Of a stretch of 64,000 nucleotides of DNA, positions 52,604-52,807 are shown piece by piece. A model generated the notes under the pieces. It was not told where the DNA came from and made no database searches. It was given only the letters and a program-made list of their open reading frames with translations. Location: NCBI GenBank assembly GCA_021083345.1, contig JAJGRE010000006.1:62001-126000 (forward strand). Direction: 5' to 3'. Source of the DNA: Calditrichales bacterium MX18-03 (GTDB lineage Bacteria > Bacillota > Clostridia > Lutisporales > Lutisporaceae). Each line of letters opens with the position of its first letter. The first letter of the stretch is position 1. Position numbers and translations under genes: made by a program.

Positions 52604-52650
52604 ACCTTCTCCTCTTTCTTTTTGAGTTGTCTTGCTGAGTGCTTAAATAA

Positions 52651-52775
52651 AATAAAAAAGACCTCTACGATGATCCTTATCGGAACATGTAAAAGTCTTG
52701 CTTCCCATCGGGCTATATAGCCAGGCGCACTGCCGGTTGTTGGCTGTATAGATATAAGCTACTCCCTTTTCTGAA
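52651..52775 (-). promoter_or_regulatory. candidate yybP-ykoY (Mn2+) riboswitch with intrinsic terminator, leader of ftsH
   Basis: The minus-strand RNA begins AGAAAAGGGAGUAGC (52772-52758) and later has AAGCAAGACUUUUAC (about 52704-52690). These match the two conserved strands of the yybP-ykoY aptamer (GGGGAGUAGC and AGCAAGACC), and AAAAG pairs with CUUUU as P1. Between them are a long stem (CUAUAxAGCCA / UGGCUxUAUAG), an inner GGC/GCC stem and a CCC-GAU-GGG hairpin. The 3' strand of P1 also pairs with 52658-52672 to form a terminator followed by a T-rich run at 52651-52659. Ligand-stabilised P1 would prevent the terminator, giving an ON switch. The family sequence is recalled from memory, not searched. 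Confidence 0.62.
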
Positions 52776-52778
52776 CTT

Positions 52779-52807
52779 ATTATACTGCATTTCAGTATTT
52801 ATGTCAA
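52779..52807 (-). promoter_or_regulatory. consensus SigA promoter of ftsH
   Basis: TTGACA (52807-52802), exactly 17 bases, TATAAT (52784-52779) on the minus strand. Transcription would start near 52772, at the first base of the predicted aptamer. Confidence 0.92.

Follow-up and report, generated by a model that had tools for sequence, protein, structure and literature searches.

The window, i.e. the whole stretch of 64,000 nucleotides that was analysed, carries on its minus strand an ftsH gene preceded by a structured leader. The encoded protein has FtsH_ext, AAA and peptidase M41 domains, and its HEXXH motif takes the form HEVGH. The gene upstream encodes a small membrane protein (PF06541). 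Its end precedes the promoter on the minus strand, and the -35 box starts right after its stop codon. No ORF of at least 80 aa was found between the leader and ftsH. The features, in the order of transcription, are the following.

52807 to 52779, minus strand: promoter TTGACA-17-TATAAT, score 12/12 (-35 box TTGACA at 52807-52802, 17-bp spacer, -10 box TATAAT at 52784-52779)
52770 to 52691, minus strand: predicted yybP-ykoY-type aptamer from P1 to P1', 80 nt (covariance models R2 and R3; model match 52773-52688)
52770 to 52766, minus strand: 5' strand of P1.1, AAAAG, with the partner CUUUU at 52695-52691
52759 to 52756, minus strand: 5' strand of P1.2, GCUU, with the partner AAGC at 52703-52700; this helix covaries in relatives
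52750 to 52714, minus strand: P3 hairpin, with P3.1 formed by 52750-52743 and 52721-52714
52742 to 52738, minus strand: L3, CAACA, within the P3 hairpin
52734 to 52732, minus strand: P3.2, GGC, with the partner GCC at 52726-52724
52712 to 52704, minus strand: P4, CCC-GAU-GGG
52699 to 52654, minus strand: intrinsic terminator (5' arm 52699-52689, 3' arm 52668-52658, then a U run)
52620 to 52604, minus strand: ribosome binding region AGAGGAGAAGG, purine-rich, recognized by eye
52603 to 50783, minus strand: ftsH, start codon 52603-52601, a second FtsH paralogue of 606 aa (TIGR01241, 775 bits; PF01434; tree)

The first-pass annotation had described a perfect promoter in the range 52651-52807, both half-motifs of the yybP-ykoY aptamer, and a P1 partner strand shared with a terminator just before the ftsH ribosome site. 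This arrangement of promoter, leader and terminator is confirmed. The range is right (the ribosome site and the start codon fall outside it), the half-motifs GGGAGUAGC and AGCAAGAC are both located where they had been placed, and CUUUU lies inside the 5' arm of the terminator. Since that arm includes the 3' strand of P1.1, the P1 and terminator pairings are mutually exclusive. A scan for promoters found three promoter-like sites overall, compared with 3.7 in shuffled sequences; thus the promoter of the ftsH leader is notable by its perfect score and position alone. The terminator folds with -18.3 kcal/mol (z -5.4), and none of 200 shuffles was as good; for the whole leader the fold has z -2.6, with 3 of 200 shuffles as good. 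A pattern scan listed four other terminators (3.8 expected) and missed this one, probably because its stem is interrupted. P3.1 has one C-A mismatch. A second exact copy of AGCAAGAC occurs at 52629-52636, between the terminator and the ribosome site, and could pair with the 3' arm of the terminator.

Relatives of the leader were collected with BLASTN in 61 genomes, including its own. Besides itself, the leader gave three matches, which precede one P-type ATPase gene and two UPF0016 genes. In the genome as a whole, Rfam model RF00080 has a single sub-threshold match (25.7 bits), located on a different contig and upstream of a cation P-type ATPase gene (Pfam). These four leaders and the ftsH leader make up the alignment of model R1, in which 9 of 22 pairs vary on both sides. 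Counting its own genome, R1 has matches in 16 of the 22 genomes of the family (E 0.01) and in 78 of 291 genomes of the class (E 0.001). Model R2 was built from 46 R1 matches with the ftsH leader left out. In its alignment, which was fitted to the structure so that the covariation figures are subject to that fit, 94.8% of cells pair, 19 of 22 pairs vary on both sides, and none of 500 shuffles was equal. The single R2 match in the window is the ftsH leader (71.7 bits, E 2.1e-14). In the whole-genome search of the phylum, which gave matches in 171 of 398 genomes, the leader was found with E 1.6e-12.

R1 had contained the ftsH leader and the loci of R2 came from R1. Therefore, we built model R3 from six leaders scored by RF00080 at E 0.004 or better and the mntP leader of E. 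coli. Most of the bias is removed in this way, and a residue is left because the sequences, mntP apart, come from R1 matches and the alignment was made with R2. R3 finds the ftsH leader in the window with 53.9 bits (E 5e-12). On E. coli, R2 matches the leaders of mntP (47.5 bits) and alx (21.9 bits, E 0.002); alx is not recovered by R3 at E 1.

RF00080 itself gives no match to the ftsH leader, even at E 10. Across the window, only a tRNA reaches the gathering score of an Rfam family. The leader gives no meaningful match to any family, its one hit being a chance match to a snoRNA family (E 4.9) on the other strand. This leaves room for the view that a plain attenuator, or a leader of some other class, resembles yybP-ykoY by chance. 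We consider such a coincidence extremely improbable given the E-values of R2 in the whole-genome search and of R3 in the window. The RF00080 search had been proposed as a check, with the lack of a hit counting as a refutation, but it proved insensitive for this clade. Of 20 R1 loci used for calibration, several of which precede TerC and UPF0016 genes, seven have an RF00080 match at E 0.1, and not one reaches the Rfam cut-off. The E. coli mntP leader scores 41.6 against a cut-off of 45, and mntP is reported to be Mn-responsive; alx has no RF00080 match at E 0.01. Since comparable leaders are missed as well, Rfam was set aside as the deciding test. It follows that lists of genes under Mn riboswitches built on RF00080 may be incomplete. 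By homology and anatomy, as far as these can be read from sequence, the ftsH leader is a riboswitch of the yybP-ykoY family.

Among 74 relatives, 28 positions show a conservation of at least 90%. The ftsH leader keeps 27 of them, and the sole exception flanks P1. The conserved L1 (GGGAGUAG / AGAC) and L3 (CAxCA with the discriminator A) are both present. According to the available text of PMC6754395, the N7 of an adenosine touches Mn2+, namely A41 in L. lactis and A48 in X. oryzae. The A at 52738, the last of CAACA, aligns with A41 and A48 in an alignment of the short L3 sequences quoted in that paper.

Crystal structures of yybP-ykoY riboswitches show a four-way junction with P2, which is a variable feature. 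The ftsH leader has no P2 hairpin: only 6 nt separate the modelled P1.2 and P3.1. The link between these helices is 8 nt or shorter in 52 of 77 aligned leaders, E. coli alx included. In addition, a Streptococcus member with a three-way junction is reported to bind Ca2+ tighter than Mn2+ (PMC9495176). These short links and the reported three-way-junction member indicate that P2 is probably optional in the class. The Streptococcus member, together with the expectation of Breaker's group that yybP variants have other metal ligands (PMC7266159, as far as its text was available), also raises the possibility that the same fold in the ftsH leader, which likewise lacks P2, is tuned to another divalent ion, e.g. 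Ca2+ or another transition metal, and that ftsH answers to that metal. We regard this as quite unlikely, because the leader retains the discriminator adenosine and the L1 and L3 positions that never vary among the 74 relatives, a similarly short link replaces P2 in most aligned leaders, and the genes behind most of the surveyed leaders (see below) belong to known families of Mn or cation exporters.

The 3' strand of P1.1 doubles as a terminator arm in 74 of the 77 aligned leaders, compared with 9.0 after shuffling of the downstream 100 nt. The three leaders without a shared terminator are those of E. coli mntP and alx and one MntP leader. The yybP-ykoY class and the attenuator logic proposed in the first-pass annotation are thus supported by R2 and R3, by the conserved positions and by the terminator sharing. 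For the L. lactis member, competition between P1.1 and the terminator is reported to give a Mn2+-dependent ON switch (PMC11087558, in part). One review labels these riboswitches OFF switches (PMC11477304, in part), at odds with the L. lactis work. We took the ON direction for the ftsH leader, preferring the primary paper over the review. On these grounds we infer that the leader is very likely Mn2+-responsive and ON.

The manganese-sensing yybP-ykoY riboswitch is normally found before manganese exporters. We surveyed the genes behind 270 such leaders, the window's own included; the loci were drawn from the R1 and R2 search results and, for the phylum, from among the matches listed. No two of them are copies of one place; the stretches around two leaders of genome G418 overlap, since 1.1 kb separates these leaders. 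Downstream genes were classified by BLAST to seed proteins, except that DedA was named by eye; examples of GDT1, TerC, MntP, Na_Ca_ex, OAD_beta, P-type ATPase, FtsH, HtpX (M48) and YugP-type proteins were confirmed with Pfam. The downstream gene is a cation transporter at 233 of the 270 loci: P-type ATPase at 87, UPF0016/GDT1 at 68, TerC at 57, a sodium/calcium-exchanger type at 15 and MntP at 6. As the first-pass annotation had noted, ftsH is not a standard member. The remaining loci have HtpX (7), OadB-like (5), FtsH (1), YugP-type (1) and DedA (1) genes, and 22 are unassigned, among them a transposase, ABC transporters, a pyrophosphatase, an apparent broken ATPase gene and loci too short to read. 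Sampling was deliberate in the family of genome G100, in the genus that has HtpX behind such leaders and in the order to which this genus belongs. Without these loci there are 234 in total, with 210 transporters, two HtpX, three OadB, one each of FtsH, YugP-type and DedA, and 16 unassigned. No new kind of gene was found behind R2 leaders in seven genomes of the order of G100.

Several single loci of the survey may be described here. OadB-like subunits of sodium-pump decarboxylases stand behind R2 leaders at L018, L202, L355, L356 and L407 (PF03977 confirmed for L018). At G127:C199:16059-16579 (L351, L353), tandem R2 leaders about 300 bases apart lie upstream of a UPF0016 gene. An inorganic pyrophosphatase gene (PF00719) is close behind an R2 leader at L415, and at L048 a leader and a terminator lie upstream of an apparently broken P-type ATPase gene.

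HtpX, a membrane zinc protease, is found behind the same type of leader in seven of nine searched genomes of one genus. The loci are L090, L133 and L333-L337, and one of the proteins was assigned to M48 by Pfam. All seven genomes have TerC behind another such leader. A zinc peptidase of the YugP type (PF04298) occurs behind such a leader once (L054; L250:5154-6022). R3 matches 7 of 7 HtpX leaders and the YugP-type leader, and downstream of each of these eight a hairpin formed in part by the P1.1 strand was recognized by eye. The recurrence of HtpX behind the same leader type raises the interest of the ftsH case.

The genome has seven FtsH-like matches, three of them strong. We took the copy on contig C13, which lies behind a gene resembling hpt by eye, as the housekeeping one. 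In a tree of 24 FtsH proteins of the family (orthologues L216 and L221 left out), the FtsH of the window falls into a second clade with local support 1.000, apart from the hpt-linked copy. Its orthologues in 11 other genomes of the family have 58-73% identity; two more, G012 and G020, have ftsH in pieces and are outside the count of upstream leaders. The genome also keeps two short GDT1 genes, with no R2 match near them; the idea that the leader was left behind by a UPF0016 gene that has since been lost was considered and is not supported.

Matching leaders before ftsH in relatives had been proposed as further support for the first-pass annotation, and their absence as a refutation; none was found. 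No R2 leader lies upstream of the orthologous ftsH in any of the 11 family genomes. None was found at E 1 at 80 distant FtsH loci, which are the best 80 of 161 relatives of the FtsH N-terminus in a named collection, all with at most 42% identity and some with little upstream sequence (fewer than 310 bases at L263 and L305). Among 30 FtsH loci of the family and of the genome itself, the single convincing leader (L220) stands after ftsH and before a P-type ATPase gene. We attribute to chance the weak R2 scores of 18.0 bits (E 0.15) at L225 and 12.2 bits (E 3.3) at L212. Since leaders of the same type precede Mn exporter genes in the relatives, their absence before other ftsH genes points to lineage-specific recruitment of the leader to ftsH and not to another leader class.

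The pairing of leader and ftsH is thus known from one genome only among those examined, and as no second genome with it was found, conservation cannot show selection for it. This restriction to a single genome fits a rearrangement or gene loss that left ftsH behind a working Mn switch with no adaptive value. So does the neighbourhood of ftsH in the family: eight of the 11 orthologues directly follow a MarR (5) or TetR (3) gene (Pfam) instead, and in three relatives (G007, G002, G011) a riboswitch and a P-type ATPase gene are on the same strand as ftsH, with the riboswitch about 5 kb or 13 kb before ftsH or, in one case directly after it, 140 bases past the stop codon. We nevertheless find an accidental placement rather unlikely. 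No decay is seen at the locus, where aptamer, terminator, promoter and ribosome site are all intact, and the association with a protease is kept for HtpX across seven genomes of another lineage.

Our preferred reading, with a probability of about 80%, is that the leader is a Mn2+-responsive transcriptional ON switch of the yybP-ykoY class for a second ftsH, and that the FtsH made under its control would clear harmful membrane proteins. The promoter, the aptamer fold, the conserved residues, the exclusive pairings and the gene are read directly from the DNA; ligand, direction and physiology would follow from the likeness to known members of the class and from what is reported on FtsH. Without Mn2+, the CUUUU strand would pair downstream and form the terminator upstream of ftsH. 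Binding of Mn2+ at the L1-L3 interface would close P1.1 and keep the terminator from forming, and ftsH would be transcribed. Membrane proteins that do harm in Mn excess would then be removed by the additional FtsH. Candidate substrates may be metal importers such as MgtE, or stalled or mismetalated proteins at the translocon.

The known systems agree with parts of this picture. The ftsH leader has in common with the L. lactis yoaB member (RF00080) the L1 and L3 motifs, the discriminator adenosine and the sharing of P1.1 with the terminator; it differs in preceding ftsH and not a transporter gene, in lacking P2 and in having no RF00080 match. The E. coli mntP and alx leaders are likewise matched by R2, but, unlike in the ftsH leader, a shared terminator was not found in them. 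In B. subtilis, YqgP is reported to present MgtE to FtsH, with MgtE cleavage going up with Mn2+ excess at low Mg2+ (PMC7231995, in part). FtsH is also reported to co-purify with the TerC proteins MeeF and MeeY and to be essential in their absence, and HtpX to co-purify with MeeF (PMC10550928, in part). Thus FtsH of B. subtilis is likewise tied to Mn toxicity and TerC, as far as these sources go, but there the link is one of activity and interaction, whereas here it would be riboswitch control. In Synechocystis, FtsH1/2 transcripts are reported among those raised in Mn excess (PMC11649195, in part). Induction of FtsH by Mn2+ would fit the B. subtilis and Synechocystis reports. In the open-licence literature we found no report of Mn2+ riboswitch control of proteases of the FtsH/HtpX type.

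These observations suggest that some bacteria switch on a membrane quality-control protease as Mn builds up. A broader proposal, on which we see the balance as close but tilted slightly to the negative, is that Mn homeostasis in these bacteria may include an arm of membrane proteolysis run by Mn2+ riboswitches. FtsH, HtpX and YugP-type proteases would have been recruited in separate lineages to the switch that drives TerC and Mn exporters elsewhere, and the induction of exporters would be coupled to the clearing of metal importers or of membrane proteins that are damaged or mismetalated. If this is true, there would be a regulated proteolytic answer to Mn toxicity, besides export.
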